A DNA stretch of 35,346 nucleotides from Spirochaetales bacterium. Lineage in GTDB: Bacteria; Spirochaetota; Spirochaetia; Treponematales; UBA12059. The stretch spans positions 1-35,346 of the forward strand of contig JAFGNN010000064.1 in assembly GCA_016926955.1 (NCBI GenBank), written 5' to 3'. Below, one piece after another: positions 4,346 through 18,806 of this stretch. Under the pieces are notes generated by a model, which worked only from the letters and a program-made list of their open reading frames with translations, searched no databases and was not told the DNA's origin. Every line of letters starts with the position of its first letter. The first letter of the stretch is position 1. A program made the translations under genes and the position numbers.

Positions 4346-4909
4346 ATGGCAAAGGACGCAAAACTCGACGCCGCGCGGCGCGATGAATTGCTCACAATCC
4401 TGGAGGCGCGCTTCGCCAAGCACGCGAATCGGCACGCCGGGCTCGACTGGGCGGCGGTCCGCAAACGGCTCGAGGCCGCCCCGGACAAGCTGTGGTCGCT
4501 CTCGGAAATGGAGCGCACGGGCGGGGAGCCCGACGTGATCGCCGTCGACGCGGCCTCGGGCGGGCTCGTGTTCGCCGACTGCGCTTCCGAGAGTCCCGCG
4601 GGGCGACGCAGCCTCTGCTACGACCGCGCAGCCCTCGACGCGCGCAAGGAGCACAAGCCCGCCACGAGCGTCCTGGACCTGGCCGCCGAAATGGGCGTCG
4701 AGCTCCTCGACGAGGCTGGCTACGCCCGGCTCCAGGAGCTCGGCGAGTTCGACCTGAAGACCTCGAGCTGGCTTCTCACGCCGCCCGCGCTGCGGAAGCT
4801 CGGCGGCGCCCTCTTCGGCGACCGCCGCTACGGGCGGGTCTTCACCTACCACAACGGCGCGGAATCGTACTACGGCGCGCGCGGCTTCCGGGCCTCGCTC
4901 AAGGTCTGA
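4346..4909 (+). CDS. DUF4256 family protein
   Basis: 187 aa, cytoplasmic, with no signal peptide or membrane segment. It matches the DUF4256 family along its whole length as I remember it: HRHAGLDW-like N-terminal segment (here NRHAGLDWAAV), KLWSLSEMERTGGEPDV, the SPAGRRSLCYDRAALDARK segment, and the C-terminal YHNGAESYYGARGFR block. The family has no established function. The start at 4346 is preceded by GTGGAGG with a 5-base spacer, a strong ribosome site that excludes the longer upstream frame. It stands alone on its strand and converges on the LarA-like gene 22 bases downstream; the gap holds a small inverted repeat (GCCCGG-gt-CCGGGC). Confidence 0.9.
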   Translation: MAKDAKLDAARRDELLTILEARFAKHANRHAGLDWAAVRKRLEAAPDKLWSLSEMERTGGEPDVIAVDAASGGLVFADCASESPAGRRSLCYDRAALDARKEHKPATSVLDLAAEMGVELLDEAGYARLQELGEFDLKTSSWLLTPPALRKLGGALFGDRRYGRVFTYHNGAESYYGARGFRASLKV

Positions 4910-4931
4910 GGGCGCCGGCCCGGGTCCGGGC

Positions 4932-6209
4932 TCAGGATCCGAAGCGCGCCTTCGTGGCCCAGAGCCCGAGCGCGGGGTTCGGCACGAAGAAGACTTCCTC
5001 GCCGTCGGGAAGGATGTTGCGGCCGGCAGCCAGCTTCGCATGATCGTAACGTGCCGCCGTTTCCGCGTAATCCCCCCAGGCGTAGCCCACACCCTCCACC
5101 TCGGCCCGCGTCAGCCCGCCCGCGGCGTAGGTGATGCGGAAGCGCCCCTCGCTCGAGCCGTGTATCAGGTGGGCGGCCGCCGAGAGGGCGCCGGCCAGGT
5201 CCCCTTCCTTTTCCACGAGGGCGCGAACCTCGGCCGAGCTCCGGTAGCCGTACTTCCGTATGAGCGCGTCGATGCCCAGGTCCTCGCCGAAGCGGCGCAC
5301 GCCCGGCGCGAGCACCACGAGCTCCCCGCCGTCGGCGATGGCCATGCGCGTGCGGTACACGGCCTTGTTCCCCAGCCAGGTCGTGCGGAACTCCTCGGGG
5401 TCCAGGTAGCAGACAACTTTCCGGAGCGGCGCGTCGAGGATGTCGAGGTTCACCGCCTGCGAGAGTGCGGCGGCCTTCTCGAAGCACTCGCGGTCGGTGG
5501 AGGCATAGAGGCCGCGCAGGGCGAGCGAGCCGTCCGCCCGCGCGCCGACGACAGTCTGGATCCACAGGATGGCGGGCAGCTTCGAACCGAAGCGCACGAG
5601 CGCTTCGTCGAAGAGGGCGCGCACGGGCGTGTCGGCGCGGCCCATCATGCGCTCCATGCCGTAGGCCGCCCCGAGGAAGTGGCTCTTGTCGATGGCCTCC
5701 TTGCCGCCCGCGCCCACCCAGAGGTTCTTGGCGTGGTTGGCCATGCCCGCCACCTCGTGCGGCACCACCTGGCCGATCGACACGATGCCGGAAAAGCCGC
5801 CCTCGACAAGGAGGCGGTTCGCCTGCGCGGGCCAGTCGAAGGCGAGGACACCCTGCGACACGCGCCCGACGAAGGCGCCCTCGAGGCGGCCCAGCTCCAC
5901 GACGCCGTTCCGCCAGTCGTGGGCGGCGAAGCGCGCGGCCGGCGCGTCGGGGTAGAGCCGCGCGATCTCCGCGGCCGTCATGGGTTCGTGGGTGCCGAGC
6001 GCAGGCAGGACCAGCGCCAGCCGATCGCCGAGCGCGGCCGCCGTCGCGCCGAGCATGGTACCCGCGCGCGAGTGCGCCCGGGTGCCGTCGGGCGGCAGGG
6101 CCGCCACGGTTCCTGTCGGGAAAGCCCGAGACACGGCCGCGCGGACGAGCTCGCGGGCTTCGGCCTCGGAAATGTCGGCGTCGCGCGCGCCGCGGTCGAT
6201 CAGGAGCAT
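4932..6209 (-). CDS. LarA-family nickel-pincer (NPN) racemase/epimerase
   Basis: 425 aa. The N-terminal half is a lactate-racemase (DUF2088) domain. In Lactobacillus LarA the nickel-pincer cofactor is held by His108, His174, Lys184 (covalent) and His200. Here His151, Lys161 and His177 (in PHEVAGMANHAK and DKSH) keep exactly the same spacing of 10 and 16 residues, with His97 (HDWRNG) as the likely first histidine and GTHEPMT (about 72-78) matching the LarA substrate loop. It should therefore racemise or epimerise a 2-hydroxy acid; the divergent sequence suggests a substrate other than lactate, possibly a sugar acid. No larB/C/E cofactor genes are in the window. GGAGG lies six bases before the ATG. 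The start overlaps by 10 bases the end of the read-through antitoxin frame. Confidence 0.85.
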   Translation of the reverse strand: MLLIDRGARDADISEAEARELVRAAVSRAFPTGTVAALPPDGTRAHSRAGTMLGATAAALGDRLALVLPALGTHEPMTAAEIARLYPDAPAARFAAHDWRNGVVELGRLEGAFVGRVSQGVLAFDWPAQANRLLVEGGFSGIVSIGQVVPHEVAGMANHAKNLWVGAGGKEAIDKSHFLGAAYGMERMMGRADTPVRALFDEALVRFGSKLPAILWIQTVVGARADGSLALRGLYASTDRECFEKAAALSQAVNLDILDAPLRKVVCYLDPEEFRTTWLGNKAVYRTRMAIADGGELVVLAPGVRRFGEDLGIDALIRKYGYRSSAEVRALVEKEGDLAGALSAAAHLIHGSSEGRFRITYAAGGLTRAEVEGVGYAWGDYAETAARYDHAKLAAGRNILPDGEEVFFVPNPALGLWATKARFGS

Positions 6210-9856: not shown

Positions 9857-12049
9857 CTACTCCGCGAGGCGGAAGCGGTTTATCTCCGACGACACCGCGG
9901 AGGCGACCTCCCTGTTCTCGTGGATGCCTTCGACGATCTCTCGCGTCGCCTCGTCGACCGCGACAAGATCGTTGCCGATGGATCCCGCGCGCTCGAGCAC
10001 CTTGGCGTTGATCTCCTCGAGCTTCCGCATGGTCGTTTCGAGACGATCGTTGGCTCCGCGCAGCCGGTCGGAACCCTTGCGGACCTCGGAGGTACGCTCG
10101 TTGACGTCGGCGAGCGCGTCGAGGATCTGGCGCGAGCCTTCGTTCTGCTCGTGCATCGCCGCGCCGATCTCGCCCTGCAAGCGGTCGACGTCGCCCACCG
10201 CGGCGGCGATGGCCTCGAACGAGCGCTCGGCATGGTGCGTGGTGCCGTCCGCTCCCGCGATGAGGGCGTTCACCGCCTTGAGCTCGGCGGCCACCACCTT
10301 GGACTGGTTCTGCGAGGTCTCCGCGAGGACGCGGATCTCCGACGCCACGACCGCGAACCCCCTTCCCGCCTCGCCCGCGTGGGCTGCCTCTATCGCCGCG
10401 TTCATCGCCAGCAGGTTGGTCTGCTGCGCGATCTTCCGGATGGACGCGTTCGCCTCGAGAAGGGCGTCCGAGCGGCTGGCCATGGCCCGGATGCCTTCGA
10501 TGATCGAGGCGAGGGCGGCCCGGCCTTCGCCGGACGTTTCGCGGAGCTGGCCGACACTCGTTCCCAGCACGCCGAGATTCCGGTTCACCGCGCCGATGTT
10601 GCCTATCATCTGCTCGATCGACGCGGAGGATTCGACGATGCCGGCGGACTGGTGCTCGATGACGTCGGAGAGCTCCTCGACGAGCTCGGTGGCTTCCTTG
10701 ATCGAAGCGGCCATGCCCCGGACCTCCGCGTCCTGGGCGCCGGTTTCGGAGCCGATGGCGCGCGCGCTGCCGCCGATGCGGGTCAGGGCTTCAGCCGCCT
10801 TCGCCGAGCGCTCCTCCAGCGAGTCGGCGCGGGCGAGCAGGCGGTCGGACGCGGCGCGGATTCGCTTCACGGTGTCGGAGAGGGAACCGGCGAACTCGTT
10901 GAAGCCCCGGGCCAGGTCGGAGACCTCGTCCGAGCCCTTCGCCACGAGGCGCCTCGACAGGTCGCCGTCTCCGCGGGCGATCTCGCCGATCGCGACGGCC
11001 GCCCGCTTGACGGGAACCACGACCGCGTTGCCGAGGGCCCATGACGCCAAGGCCAGAAGGACGACGGCGCCGGCCAGGGAGACCGCGATCAGGACGAGGA
11101 GCCGGTCGATCGCCGCGAGCGCGTTGTTGGCCGGCGCGACCAGGGCCAGCGAATAGCCCGTTCCTCCCACTGGCGACCAGGAGACGACCGAATCGATACC
11201 GGACCACGGATCGACGAAGCGGAGCTCGCCGGGAACGCCGGAGAGCATGCGATCGCCGAGCGCGCGTAGTTCCGGAGCTTCGTCCTCGGCGAGGATGGAA
11301 GGCCTGAGCTCGGTCGCCTTGCCGTCGACGGTCTCGACCCGGATGTTGCGCTTCGGATCGGGGTGGTAGGAATAGGTTCCCGAAGGGGCCAGCAGGAAGC
11401 AGTAGGCGCCCTCGCCCACGCGTTCGGAGACCTTGCGGGCGATGTCATTCAAGACCTCGTCGAGGGCCTCCCAGACCAGGGAGCCGCCGACCATACCGAT
11501 GACCCGGCCCTCCCGCGCGATGGTCGCGCCGATCACGATCTGGCGCGCTCCGTTCGAAAGCGAGATGACCGGGTCCGAGGCGAGGGACAGGGCAGCCGCT
11601 TCGGCGTTGCCTGTCACGAGCGTCTTGAAGTACGGCCGCGCGGCCACGGTGTTCAGGATCGCCTCGGGATCGGCGTCGTTCCTCGAAACGAGCATGCCCC
11701 GGGAAGGATTGCCCGCGTTCGTCGCCCAGTAGGTGCCGTCCGCGCGGATGAGCAGCATTTTCTCGAACGGCGCGGCGGGCCCCGAAGCCGCCGCGGCGGC
11801 GGGACGGAACGCTTCCCAGTCCAGGTCGAGGGCCGAGGGGTCGGCCGCCGCGAAACGGACCACGGCGAGCCGCGACTCGAAGAGCTCCGAGAGACGCGCC
11901 GCGGATTCCGACGAGCTGGCCTGGGCGACCTTGACGACCGCCTCGCCCGCGGTCGAGGCCGCGGTCGGCGCGGCCACGGAAGCGAACATCGCGAGCGGCA
12001 GAAGCCCGGCGCCGAGCATGAACAGCGTGATGCGTGTATGGAGCTTCAT
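9857..12049 (-). CDS. Methyl-accepting chemotaxis protein with double-Cache sensor
   Basis: 730 aa. First membrane helix about 7-28; a long periplasmic dCache sensor (about 35-305) with features such as [42 protein letters not shown] and [17 protein letters not shown]; second membrane helix about 318-342; HAMP ([25 protein letters not shown]); then a long cytoplasmic coiled coil with the conserved hairpin tip [20 protein letters not shown] and [16 protein letters not shown]. dCache receptors usually bind amino acids or small organic ligands. No C-terminal CheR-docking pentapeptide is seen. It is the second gene of an operon: its ATG, preceded by GAGGAGAGGG, is only 9 bases after the cupin stop. 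Confidence 0.95.
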
Positions 12050-12058
12050 GCCCTCTCC

Positions 12059-12394
12059 TCAGTTCAGGAAATCTTCGCGCGGCGGGGTAAAGGCGTCGAG
12101 CATGCGGCCCCGTTCGAGGCAGCGCACCGAATGGGGAACGCCGCCCGGCACGTGGATGGAATCGCCGGGCCCCATGGCGAGGGACCGGCCCTCCGCAGCG
12201 AACTCGAAACGCCCTTCCAGACAGACCGTCGCCTGCTCGTGCGGATGCGCATGCTCCGGTGCCGAGCCGCCTGCCTCGAAAAACACTTCGACCATCATGA
12301 GGGAAGGGCCATGGGCGCGCAGCTTCCGCCGCACGGATCCGTCGCCCACCGTGACAAAAGGCTGTTCCAGGTCGGGGAAATATCGGGCGGACAT
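12059..12394 (-). CDS. Small cupin-domain protein
   Basis: 111 aa single-domain cupin. The metal-binding motif 1 reads HAHPHEQATVCLEGRFEF (three histidines and a glutamate), and motif 2 reads GPGDSIHVPGGVPHSVRCL. The protein is cytoplasmic. Small cupins of this type bind a metal and a small molecule, acting as isomerases, dioxygenases or ligand-binding modules. The start at 12394 is supported by AGGAGG seven bases upstream; a longer frame to 12448 lacks one. It is the promoter-proximal gene of a two-gene operon with the chemotaxis receptor, so the two may deal with the same compound. Confidence 0.88.
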   Translation of the reverse strand: MSARYFPDLEQPFVTVGDGSVRRKLRAHGPSLMMVEVFFEAGGSAPEHAHPHEQATVCLEGRFEFAAEGRSLAMGPGDSIHVPGGVPHSVRCLERGRMLDAFTPPREDFLN

Positions 12395-12443
12395 GCATCG
12401 ACCTCCTCTTCGGGTGTTCGCGCTCTGGTCGAGCGGTCCATCG

Positions 12444-12472
12444 ATCATATTTCCACATTACCCTGTTTTCAG
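12444..12472 (-). promoter_or_regulatory. Candidate promoter of the cupin-chemoreceptor operon
   Basis: On the minus strand CTGAAA (12472-12467), 17-base spacer, TATGAT (12449-12444, five of six). It sits in a local AT-rich patch that contrasts with the surrounding GC-rich DNA. The 5' leader would be about 43 bases. Confidence 0.55.
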
Positions 12473-12607
12473 CGACCGCGCCGGAAAACGCGCGTTTTTC
12501 GTGAAATCGAGCCGCGCGCCGTCGTCCCGGACACGCCGCGGCACCCTGAATGCGCGGAAGCGACGTCGAGCCGGCCGAAACCGGCTGGGCGGATGAGGCG
12601 GCGACGG

Positions 12608-12636
12608 TGGCGCTCAGTTCGAAGCGGCGCTAGAAT
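12608..12636 (+). promoter_or_regulatory. Candidate promoter of the 608-aa protein gene
   Basis: TGGCGC (12608-12613, weak), 17-base spacer, TAGAAT (12631-12636, five of six). The start would be near 12643, at the Shine-Dalgarno. Confidence 0.35.
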
Positions 12637-12655
12637 TGCGGCGGAGGCTTTCCGC

Positions 12656-14482
12656 ATGGGGCTTTTCCCGCGCAGACGCGAACCCGTCCGCACGGCCGGG
12701 GTCAGCGCAGCCGCAGTCCTCGACGGCATCCACGGGCTCGACGGGCGGAAGCGGCGCTATGTGCCGCACCGCCCGGGTTCTACCATCGCCCCGCTCGAAG
12801 GAGCGCGCGTGCTTGCCGCGTGGACGGACTCGGCGGACGAGGCGACGGCCCGCGCCTTCATGCTGGCGGTCCATGACGACGAGCAGGTTCGAGCCGCGCT
12901 TGAATCGCTCGCGGGGCCGACCGCTTGCCGTCTGGTGGCGGAGGAACCCTGCGCCGCGGCGGACGCGCGGTACTCGGCCACCGAGCTGTCGCTGTTTCGT
13001 GCCGAGGCGGTCCGGCGCAGGAAGCGCCGCAAGGACGCCCGGGAACCGGCGGCGCTCGAGGGCTTGCCGATCTATGCGGTACGCGGATTAACGGACGCGC
13101 GCGATCCGGGACGGAAGGGGAACGGCGGAGATGGCGCCGACAAGTCGCGTGAGGTTCCGGAGCGTTTGAGGATCGAGGCATCGAACGACTTCCCCGCCCT
13201 CGCCCTGCTCGTGCCCGCCGAATTCGCGCCGACACCGGGCGCCCTCGCGCGCGTCGTGCCGGGAGCCGTGCTGGATCGGGGTGCCGCCGCCGCCTGCGGC
13301 GCCCGCACGGCCATCGCCTGCACGCTTCCCGTCGGCACCTCGACGATCGAATGGTCCCTGCTCTTCCCGCCACTGCCCCCTTCCGATCCGGGCACTCCCG
13401 CGGCCGCGCAACGCTTCGCCACCCTTGTGGAGGCCTCGGCAAAGACGGCCGCGGCATTCCTGGCCTCGCTCAAGCTGCCCGCGGGAGAACCGCGCATCGC
13501 CCCGCCAGTCCGGGTCGACGCCCCCTTCGGGTCCGCCAGCCCCGACCTTTTCGCCGTCGAGGCGGAGCTCAGGCTCGGGTCCCGCGACCTTCCGCTCCTT
13601 GTCGCCGTTCGCGCGTCCGCTGCCCGCTTCCTTTCGCGCATTTCGGGCGACGAACTCGCCGCCACGGACGCCGATCCCGTGACGCGTTTCCTCGAGGCGA
13701 ACCGGCGGCTTCGCTCGCGGCTGGCGCAGGGCACGGCGAAGCGTTTCGCCGCCCGCCCCTCGCTCGCGGCTTTCCTGAGGCTCCTCGACGACGCGGACCG
13801 CGCGCGCCTCGTTTCGCGCCTCGCCGCCGCGTTCCGTCCGGCCGAGCTCGTGAAGGCGCTGTACGCAGCCACCCGAACCCGGGACGGCGTCGCGGCGCTG
13901 GTCCCGCGCGCGGGCTTCCGCTCCCGCGACCTCGTGGCGCGCGCCCCCTCGGTCTGGGCGGAGGACTTCGAGGCCGCCCTCGCTTCGCTCGACCCCGCCG
14001 CCGCGCCATCCGAGGCCGAGGCCGCGGGAATGGACCTCGCGACGCTTTCCTTCGTGGCAGGTGAGCTGGCGGCGGGCCGGCTCGAGCTTTCGCCCTTCGC
14101 GAAATCCGCGCTCGCGCCCGTGGCGGCGCGCTACCGCGACGGACGCTTCGCCGAACTCCGCGTCCTCCGGCAGAAGGACGGCCTCGCCGCGCTCGTGTCG
14201 GGTTCGGGCAGGCGACTGGGCGCTACGGCCCTGGCGGGCGTCACCGATCGCGCGCTGGCCCTGGCCACCATCGAGGACGGAGAGCTCCGGGAAGCCCTGA
14301 AGGACCTCATGTCGCCAGGCCGGCGCCGGGCCTTCTCCGAGGAGATCGTCTGGGTGGACGCTCGCCGCTCCGCCGCCGCGCTGGACCCGGAGGACTGCCT
14401 GGCAGCCCGCGCCGAAGTCCGCGGGCGCTTTTCCGCCCGGCTCGAGGCGCTCAGGGAAGGTCGGGCGGCGAGGCGCGGCTGA
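12656..14482 (+). CDS. 608-aa protein of unknown function with a FliG-C-like C-terminus
   Basis: I do not recognise the full-length protein. It has no signal peptide or membrane segment, is Ala/Arg/Leu-rich and helical. Residues 1-35 contain a basic stretch; about 120-185 is a charged linker. The last 80 residues resemble the C-terminal helices of the flagellar rotor protein FliG: RALALATIEDGELREALKDLMS against the FliG pattern LALALK-x-ELREKI-x-NMS, then RRAFSEEI where FliG has a K/R-x-A-x-x-x-x-E-E/D-x repeat. A middle segment (FLRLLDDADRARLVSRLA, about 375-392) could also be a FliG-like armadillo helix. The charged torque helix of true FliG is not recognisable and the protein is nearly twice FliG length, so it would be a divergent relative. 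The ATG at 12656 follows GGAGG by eight bases. It stands alone between two chemoreceptor loci. Confidence 0.6.
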   Translation: MGLFPRRREPVRTAGVSAAAVLDGIHGLDGRKRRYVPHRPGSTIAPLEGARVLAAWTDSADEATARAFMLAVHDDEQVRAALESLAGPTACRLVAEEPCAAADARYSATELSLFRAEAVRRRKRRKDAREPAALEGLPIYAVRGLTDARDPGRKGNGGDGADKSREVPERLRIEASNDFPALALLVPAEFAPTPGALARVVPGAVLDRGAAAACGARTAIACTLPVGTSTIEWSLLFPPLPPSDPGTPAAAQRFATLVEASAKTAAAFLASLKLPAGEPRIAPPVRVDAPFGSASPDLFAVEAELRLGSRDLPLLVAVRASAARFLSRISGDELAATDADPVTRFLEANRRLRSRLAQGTAKRFAARPSLAAFLRLLDDADRARLVSRLAAAFRPAELVKALYAATRTRDGVAALVPRAGFRSRDLVARAPSVWAEDFEAALASLDPAAAPSEAEAAGMDLATLSFVAGELAAGRLELSPFAKSALAPVAARYRDGRFAELRVLRQKDGLAALVSGSGRRLGATALAGVTDRALALATIEDGELREALKDLMSPGRRRAFSEEIVWVDARRSAAALDPEDCLAARAEVRGRFSARLEALREGRAARRG

Positions 14483-17520: not shown

Positions 17521-18237
17521 TCAATCCGTGATCTCGTACTTCTCCGCGAGGGCGGCCAGTCCCGCCTTGTCGTCGACACAGAGCTTGTGGTAGGCGCGGG
17601 CCAGGGTGTTGCGCACGGTGGACTCGGCCACCTCGAAATCGATGGCGACTTCCTTCTGCTGCTTGCCCCTGATAGCCGCGAGCACGTAGGCGCGCTCGGC
17701 GTTGGAAAGGCCCTTCTCCGTCAGCGAGAGCATCGCCTTCGGCTCGCTGAGGTACACCACGAGCCGGTCCTTGTAGAGGAACCAGAGGAAAAGCGCGAAG
17801 GCCGCGATGAAGAAGGTGGGCGCGAGGGCGGTGACAGGGGAAGCCTTCGAGAGGAAGGCCGCGGCGATCTCGACCGCGAGCAGGTAGGCCCCGACCAGGG
17901 CCACCTTCGGCGCCCGGCGCTTCAGGAAGAAGCCGGCCCGCTCCAGGAGCAGCACCCCGACGATGAAGAAGCCGAGCCCGTAGATGCCTCGCGAATCGGT
18001 GATGATCGACACGGGGGTCATGGCCAGGAACAGGATAGGCTGGATCCACCTGAATGCATTCACCAAGGCGCTGACCGCGAAAAGCGCGATGGACAGGAGC
18101 ATGATCGCCTGGTTCATCGAAAAGAACATGTATGCCGGGTCGTGGTTCCGGACCATCCCGACGACGACGTTGAGCAGGTACCCGAGGGCGAACACGCCAG
18201 CGAACAGGAAACCGATGGTTTTCAGCTTGTTCGGCAT
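17521..18237 (-). CDS. Membrane-anchored LuxR-type transcriptional regulator
   Basis: 238 aa. Six hydrophobic segments (about 8-28, 37-60, 66-82, 84-100, 111-129, 134-154) occupy the N-terminal two thirds; the C-terminus (about 171-225) is a LuxR/GerE helix-turn-helix, with LTEKGLSNAERAYVLAAIRG, KEVAIDFEVAESTVRNTLARAYHKL. No receiver or ligand domain is present, so the membrane part is presumably the sensor and the DNA-binding part stays attached to it. The ATG is one base after the stop of the preceding gene (TGAGATG), so translation is coupled to that gene. The inverted repeat upstream of the pair would be a natural target for autoregulation. Confidence 0.85.
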   Translation of the reverse strand: MPNKLKTIGFLFAGVFALGYLLNVVVGMVRNHDPAYMFFSMNQAIMLLSIALFAVSALVNAFRWIQPILFLAMTPVSIITDSRGIYGLGFFIVGVLLLERAGFFLKRRAPKVALVGAYLLAVEIAAAFLSKASPVTALAPTFFIAAFALFLWFLYKDRLVVYLSEPKAMLSLTEKGLSNAERAYVLAAIRGKQQKEVAIDFEVAESTVRNTLARAYHKLCVDDKAGLAALAEKYEITD

Positions 18238-18238
18238 C

Positions 18239-18769
18239 TCAATTCTCCCAAAATCCTTCGAGGGCTTGTGTTTCGGTCATGATCGCGTCGAGGACACCCG
18301 GGTCGACGGCCCGCGCGTCGGCGAGCAGGGCCGCCTCGACGCGGCCTGAGTCCCAGGCGCCTGAATTGATCGGATTATACTCGCCCGAGGCGGCGTCTTT
18401 CGCGGCGTCGCGCCGGTAGCCCGAGAGCATGCAGAGGGCAAGCAGGGCCATTCCGCGCGCGAGGATTCCAGGATCGCCGCCCGAGAAATCCGCGATGGTC
18501 GAGAGCCGCGCGAGCGGCTCGACGTCGTCGGCGGGCGCGTGGTCGAAGACCGCGCGCGCGTCGCCGCGGTTCGCGACGACGAAGGTGGCCAGGTGGGCGA
18601 TCGCCGTGCGTTCCGCGTCGTCGCAGCCGGCCGCGAAGGGCAGGAGCCCGACAAGCCGCGCGACACTGTTCTCGCGAAAGCTGGCGGCCTCTTCGGGAGC
18701 CATTCGGAGCGCCTCCGCGGCGAGGGCGGCGAGGCGTTCCCAGGTCGGTTCGAGCTCGACTGCTTCCAC
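18239..18769 (-). CDS. Unknown 176-aa protein, coupled to the membrane LuxR regulator
   Basis: Not recognised. 176 aa, acidic and Ala-rich, predicted all-helical, no signal peptide or membrane segment beyond a short hydrophobic helix around residue 105-118 (ILARGMALLALCMLSGY). The reading frame has strong coding character and its stop overlaps the coupling site of the LuxR-type gene one base downstream. The start is GTG at 18769, with no Shine-Dalgarno; a TATCAT hexamer ends 7 bases upstream, which fits a leaderless mRNA. Given the strict pairing it may be a partner that controls the regulator, for instance an antagonist or sensor subunit, but this is inference from position only. Confidence 0.75.
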   Translation of the reverse strand: MEAVELEPTWERLAALAAEALRMAPEEAASFRENSVARLVGLLPFAAGCDDAERTAIAHLATFVVANRGDARAVFDHAPADDVEPLARLSTIADFSGGDPGILARGMALLALCMLSGYRRDAAKDAASGEYNPINSGAWDSGRVEAALLADARAVDPGVLDAIMTETQALEGFWEN

Positions 18770-18776
18770 GTTGGGG

Positions 18777-18805
18777 ATGATACATGCGGCGTAGACAGCC
18801 GTCTA
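18777..18805 (-). promoter_or_regulatory. Candidate leaderless promoter of the unknown-LuxR pair
   Basis: On the minus strand TAGACG (18805-18800), 17-base spacer, TATCAT (18782-18777), then 7 bases to the GTG. Confidence 0.5.
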
Positions 18806-18806
18806 C
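18791..18806. promoter_or_regulatory. Inverted repeat overlapping the -35 (probable operator)
   Basis: GTAGAC-AGCC-GTCTAC, perfect 6-base arms spaced by 4. It covers the -35-like box of the unknown-LuxR operon. A dimeric LuxR-type protein binding here would block the promoter; the co-transcribed regulator is the first candidate. Confidence 0.45.

Follow-up and report, generated by a model that had tools for sequence, protein, structure and literature searches.

A membrane-embedded LuxR-type regulator with a predicted palindromic operator and a small, probable soluble partner protein in a Spirochaetales genome

Results

A two-gene operon with a predicted leaderless-type promoter

We analyzed a 35,346-nucleotide stretch of DNA (the window) from a Spirochaetales bacterium (GenBank assembly GCA_016926955.1, contig JAFGNN010000064.1), which carries two adjacent minus-strand genes, here called P2 and P1, behind a promoter that is overlapped by a palindrome. 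The features of the locus are given below in window coordinates.

18791..18806, no strand assigned: putative operator palindrome GTAGAC-N4-GTCTAC, lying over the -35 of the P2-P1 promoter and over part of its spacer
18800..18805, minus: -35-like hexamer TAGACG, within the palindrome (promoter reading)
18777..18782, minus: -10 hexamer TATCAT after a spacer of 17 nt, with 7 nt between it and the GTG; leaderless mRNA predicted; similar in eight relatives
18239..18769, minus: P2, ORF of 176 aa with a GTG start (ORF and translation)
18235..18241, minus: P2/P1 junction TGA-G-ATG, one base between the ORFs
17521..18237, minus: P1, ORF of 238 aa with an ATG start; membrane-embedded LuxR-type transcription regulator
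17758..18237, minus: residues 1-160 of P1, the 6-TM domain; by hhalign a homologue of the membrane domains in further LuxR regulators and HisKA_2 kinases that are paired with P2
17530..17742, minus: LuxR/GerE-type helix-turn-helix (HTH) of P1 (residues 166-236; Pfam, model and fold match)
17596..17598, minus: Arg214 codon in the recognition helix STVRNTLAR of P1 (residue alignment, site searches, Fisher test)

An earlier note on this DNA had placed the P1 start codon one base after the P2 stop and had given the pair its own leaderless-type promoter with GTAGAC-N4-GTCTAC over the -35, and our reading of the sequence bears this out. The junction reads TGA-G-ATG, and a GGGAG ribosome-binding-like sequence lies ahead of the P1 ATG, inside the end of P2; translational coupling of the two genes is plausible, with P1 having a GGGAG of its own. 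The promoter reads TAGACG-17-TATCAT, followed after 7 nt by the GTG of P2. The palindrome is exact and its minus-strand reading is GTAGACGGCTGTCTAC. A search of the whole 3.38-Mb assembly for further GTAGAC-N4-GTCTAC sites returned this single copy. At two mismatches the window holds 2 matches against a mean of 0.38 in shuffles, which is weak evidence for an operator when taken alone; the comparative evidence carries the case. Elsewhere in the window, two long putative ORFs on the plus strand, 11363-14482 (1039 aa) and 9924-11156 (410 aa), have no Pfam or NCBIfam match.

The P1 and P2 proteins

The structure model of P1 contains six helices (residues 2-31, 41-58, 60-78, 84-100, 108-129 and 139-156) followed by a C-terminal HTH modelled at pLDDT near 90, in agreement with the six-TM LuxR regulator of the earlier note. 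The top Foldseek matches of the HTH were the DNA-binding domains of LiaR, DosR and GerE, with TM-scores of about 0.8 against isolated-domain targets and E-values of 0.13 and up. Pfam GerE fell just under threshold on P1 itself (21.5 bits, cut-off 23.5) and was found in all 19 of the 19 aligned P1 family members (best 1.1e-11). By its predicted C-terminal four-helix GerE HTH, P1 belongs to the LuxR/GerE HTH superfamily. A receiver domain was looked for and no Response_reg match was found, the six TM helices standing in that place; an ECF sigma factor was considered, and P1 gave a region-4-like HTH match without sigma region 2. The PADLOC models of anti-phage defence matched P1 solely through the HTH and nothing beyond it. 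For the 6-TM domain there was no Pfam match, and a PDB-sequence profile search gave nothing usable. With a DNA-binding domain and TM regions in one protein, P1 comes under the broad definition of a transmembrane transcription regulator.

P2 is a soluble, probably all-helical protein with invariant residues W10, H59, D81, R88, D121, D125, Y131 and N132 (alignment A1), and a simple hydropathy count detected no TM segment in its relatives. The earlier note had called it unrecognised, and we likewise found no convincing relative in Pfam, NCBIfam, PADLOC or PDB; the PDB-sequence profile search again gave nothing usable. We considered DUF5685 as its family and rejected it, as single members alone matched, at E 0.02-0.15. 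The structure model, built on five sequences, is helical but of low confidence, and its pLDDT of 46 is too poor for fold search, docking or the reading of ligand sites. P2 appears to be a small protein of an undescribed family. In genome G401 (locus L109), a broken P2 copy with two TGA and one TAG inside adjoins an intact membrane LuxR gene.

Conservation of the pair and of the palindrome

We compared the locus with 59 related genomes (G-numbered), mostly draft assemblies, in which genes were called by a simple script. P2 relatives were present in 16 of the 59 genomes and P1 relatives in 26 (E 0.001), of which 23 were counted as membrane type. P2 lies directly before P1 in 14 of the 59, at a distance of -14 to +28 nt, and the pair is therefore conserved together. 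Eight relatives carry P1 without P2, suggesting that the P1 family does not strictly depend on P2. In genomes of family f4 (L069, L095-L099), a recurrent gene order was seen around P1 relatives that have no P2: pyruvate-ferredoxin oxidoreductase-like, VanZ-like membrane protein, P1, MazG and MATE-like transporter.

The exact palindrome was found in 17 of the 59 relatives, all of them P1 carriers (17/23 versus 0/36, p=3.6e-10), and within the window's own family in 10 of 12 P1 carriers versus 0 of 11 other genomes (p=5.8e-5), p-values that overstate independence because the genomes are related. A reversed control pattern was not associated with P1 carriage (p=0.77), and on the carriage test together with this control we rejected a chance origin of the palindrome. 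Across the phylum the exact pattern is otherwise rare: genomes that lack this P1 type hold seven exact sites, spread over five of them, which amounts to a background near 0.02 per genome. The exact sites of G014 and G053, each located between convergent genes, may be due to chance, and a one-mismatch site inside a called gene (G000:C11:33255) was left out of the targets.

The earlier note had named two findings that would speak against it, a pair not conserved together and homologous operons without the palindrome; neither refuted it, with qualifications in the eight P1-only relatives and in genus g5. The site is kept before P1 or the operon in several relatives, and in the window's genus it occurs solely at the P2-P1 operon. 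Genus g5, however, has the exact palindrome at other genes and not at the P2-P1 promoter, which indicates that autoregulation is not universal. A leaderless promoter whose -10 begins 12-13 bases upstream of the start codon was predicted in G000, G005, G010, G015, G016, G017, G018, G020 and G022. Three relatives (G017, G015 and G010; L089, L092 and L093) also carry everted half-sites, GTCTAC...GTAGAC, between the palindrome and the P2 promoter, about 50-80 bases before the P2 start codon.

P2 accompanies a six-helix membrane domain with different outputs

A search of 393 genomes of the phylum with the P2 alignment recovered P2 relatives in 29 of them, spread over many families. At 23 of the 25 loci beyond the P1 group, the gene directly downstream of the P2 relative encodes a multi-TM protein (two of the 23 are split or interrupted in the assembly). 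The output domain is a LuxR-type HTH at most loci, a HisKA_2 kinase in G295 and G005 and a GHKL-type kinase in G087; a second locus in G041 resembles the G005 kinase and runs off its contig. Comparison of the membrane domains by hhalign gave 99.4% (A5/A7), 97.2% (A7/A6) and 73.6% (A5/A6), versus 0.1-0.2% for a control, the unrelated 7-TM domain of a kinase encoded in the window. Since P2 and a homologous 6-TM domain stay constant while the output domain varies, P2 is best read as a partner of the membrane domain, and the comparison supports a predicted role in which P2 has the 6-TM domain, and not the HTH, as its partner.

The earlier note had proposed that P2 is an antagonist or a sensor partner of P1, held at a fixed ratio by coupled translation, and these results favor the second half of that proposal, as a sensor partner of the membrane domain. 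An anti-factor that holds and releases the P1 HTH would agree with the gene order, in which P2 comes first and the genes are adjacent and often overlap, as in many anti-factor pairs. We nevertheless regard this role as unlikely because the P2 family also accompanies homologous 6-TM domains that carry a HisKA_2 or GHKL kinase and lack an HTH; moreover, the HTHs of P2-paired regulators differ widely whereas P2 stays recognisable, and eight genomes have P1 alone. An ordinary membrane LuxR operon, in which the pairing is historical and P2 has an unrelated function, would agree with those eight genomes and with the lack of a family match for P2. However, the pairing with the 6-TM domain holds across several Spirochaetota families and three kinds of output, which would hardly be expected of unrelated neighbors, and we give this explanation little weight.

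The half-site sequence varies with residue 214 of P1

The exact palindrome is missing from six of the P1 carriers (G016, G036, G044, G050, G005 and G025). The first four have His in place of Arg at residue 214, and the variant palindrome WTAGAC-N4-GTCTAW was found in exactly these four of 34 genomes and in 0 of the 30 others (p=2e-5, Fisher), in a search that tested exclusivity and was not blind, the variant sites having already been seen in the four genomes. At least two separate switches between Arg and His at this residue were observed, one of them within a genus whose member G030 keeps both Arg and GTAGAC. G005 has a one-mismatch site, and G025 has Lys or Asn at residue 214 and no exact palindrome. 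G033 is an exception, having Gly at this residue and yet one GTAGAC site. In the P1-only genomes G047 and G030 the palindrome lies in front of P1 itself, and in G036, G044 and G050 the variant lies upstream of P1. The retention of a site before P1 in these genomes without P2 suggests that P1 and not P2 is the likely binder, and we rejected P2 as the DNA reader on the strength of G047 and G030. P1 most likely reads the palindrome, with Arg214 corresponding to GTAGAC and His214 to (A/T)TAGAC half-sites.

A different reader is improbable. The palindrome could be bound by another regulator co-inherited with P1, or by a second membrane LuxR protein of the window's genus, where G000, G001 and G002 encode paralogues with a recognition helix nearly identical to that of P1. 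Against such readers, the outer half-site base changes along with P1 residue 214 through two separate switches, the paralogue was seen in the window's genus alone, and the palindrome follows P1 across two families. These paralogues (L053, G000:C8; L052, G001:C11; L048, G002:C135) are longer than P1 and apparently 7-TM, with the recognition helix STVRN(S/T)LARAYRKL and no palindrome beside them; they might share the operator with P1 in this genus.

Sites at other genes in the relatives

The palindrome precedes genes for receiver-HisKA_2 kinases in G006, G018, G020, G022 and G016 and receiver-only genes in G020 (three copies at 32-bp spacing) and G016; in G041 and G010 it was also assigned to a receiver-only gene, by the reading of a downstream start. 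In G010, G015 and G041 it precedes the gene of a helical protein of 150-160 aa; two copies of this gene in G016 have no palindrome. The helical family has no Pfam match (L070, 5407-5961; L071, near 4882-5343; L174, from about 4120). Single-genome sites before cheA (G006), a gene for a FecR-like secreted protein identified by inspection (G020) and a sigma-54 activator gene (G033) are weak candidates for targets.

In G056, G028 and G041 the palindrome lies before a hairpin-rich RNA. This non-coding RNA candidate consists of GC-rich hairpins joined by AGGTAAAAA linkers, with a terminator hairpin at the end, and it gave no Rfam match. The copies are as follows.

L063 3096-3312 (G056): hairpin RNA candidate, behind the palindrome
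L064 6085-6340 (G028): hairpin RNA candidate, behind the palindrome
L066 6080-6320 (G041): hairpin RNA candidate, behind the palindrome
L192 (G028:C5): further copy of the hairpin RNA candidate
L194 (G011:C51): further copy of the hairpin RNA candidate

Sigma-54-like -24/-12 elements were seen at the hairpin RNA of L192, L194 and G041.

At the five kinase promoters the palindrome ends 44 nt before a TACGAT -10 (G006, G018, G020 and G022) or 45 nt before TAGCAT (G016), a distance that stays constant over otherwise diverged sequence, and the -35 is weak. With this spacing the site falls near -64, which matches class I activation. Judged by position only, the palindrome at the kinase promoters would be in an activator position, and the overlap with the -35 in the window and the location of the variant site downstream of a TATAAT in G036, G044 and G050 would suit repression. 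That the palindrome is instead an RNA hairpin (terminator or attenuator) is very unlikely: the G041:C57 palindrome does form part of a longer inverted repeat with CTTTTT after it, and that of G053 has a GAAA loop and lies between convergent genes, but the window palindrome is upstream of the predicted transcription start and overlaps the -35, a change in a protein residue goes along with a change in both half-sites, and the 32-bp-spaced tandem copies of G020 and the constant spacing of 44 nt from the -10 fit a DNA site. We rejected the hairpin reading for the window and kept it for G041:C57 and G053.

Discussion

We consider it probable, at roughly two chances in three, that P1 is a one-component regulator bound to the membrane and that P2 is its dedicated soluble partner. 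P1 would be held in the inner membrane by its six helices with the LuxR-type HTH in the cytoplasm, where the HTH would bind GTAGAC-N4-GTCTAC, presumably as a dimer, with residue 214 reading the outer base of each half-site. In the window P1 most likely represses its own operon, the site covering the -35 of the leaderless promoter. In the relatives, P1 bound near -64 most likely activates weak promoters; the sites are seen there and the direction of control is proposed. The activated set would comprise receiver and receiver-kinase genes, the small helical protein and the hairpin-rich RNA. P2 probably docks on the cytoplasmic side of the 6-TM domain and may deliver a cytoplasmic signal or set the activity of that domain, by analogy with the action of RdcA on MASE1 in DgcE; it might also help the domain to fold. 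Elsewhere the same P2 and 6-TM input is paired with histidine kinase outputs.

A broader proposal, to which we give even chances, is that P2 and the 6-TM domain make up an undescribed sensory input module of the Spirochaetota, in which a soluble sensor docks on a six-helix domain with interchangeable LuxR HTH, HisKA_2 or GHKL outputs, and that the LuxR form in some lineages commands a regulon of signalling proteins and a hairpin-array RNA that is likewise undescribed. The analysis gives a membrane-bound regulator a predicted DNA site and a predicted specificity residue (214), so that a single point mutation with a matching operator could test how a membrane-fixed factor locates its promoters. 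A soluble-plus-membrane input module common to transcription factors and kinases is also suggested in a regulator-rich phylum. If the partnership is confirmed, the P2 family and the 6-TM domain, neither of which matched a Pfam model, could be named. Our search of open-licence papers found nothing relevant on this palindrome or on spirochaete membrane LuxR regulators.

The HTH fold of P1 is common to NarL/FixJ-type regulators such as LiaR and DosR, but P1 has no receiver domain and would take its input from a membrane domain instead. ToxR-type proteins have one TM helix, a periplasmic sensor part and a membrane-anchored partner. In P2, unlike the partners in VtrA/VtrC and ToxR/ToxS, no TM segment is predicted; P1 contains six helices and lacks an evident periplasmic domain. 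What P1 has in common with the transmembrane regulators (PMC10269533) and with VtrA/VtrC and ToxR/ToxS (PMC9214523) is a membrane-fixed DNA-binding protein, sometimes with an adjacent partner gene.

The earlier note had held a membrane LuxR regulator without a receiver or ligand domain to be uncommon; by the literature it is less uncommon than that, since a single strain of Eggerthella lenta has 83 transmembrane LuxRs (PMC9734109) and transmembrane transcription regulators are enriched in groups that include the Spirochaetota (PMC10269533). The LuxRs of Eggerthella and other Coriobacteriia resemble P1 in having N-terminal membrane helices and a C-terminal LuxR HTH without a receiver or soluble ligand domain and in controlling transcription from the membrane, and the Eggerthella proteins DadR, HcdR and CadR, with 10-12 helices, activate catechol dehydroxylase genes (PMC9734109). 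They differ in having 10-12 TM helices versus the six predicted in P1, in being described there without a soluble partner gene where P1 has P2, and in being tied to single metabolic enzymes (PMC9734109), whereas in relatives the P1 palindrome is found before signalling genes and an RNA as well. The multi-TM MASE1 domain of DgcE receives input from the soluble partner RdcA, and the arrangement in DgcE with RdcA/RdcB is close to P2-P1 in its proposed working, a multi-TM domain with input from a soluble partner (PMC6510439). No homology to it was seen, however, and the 6-TM domain has no Pfam match. RdcA is a dynamin-like GTPase and the output of DgcE is a diguanylate cyclase (PMC6510439), whereas P2 is a small protein. 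Membrane LuxRs as such are known, but a module of this kind with a soluble partner and exchangeable outputs appears to be undescribed. We propose that the P2-P1 module works as a combination of an Eggerthella-type LuxR and the DgcE/RdcA arrangement, while by the features tested it is a member of neither.
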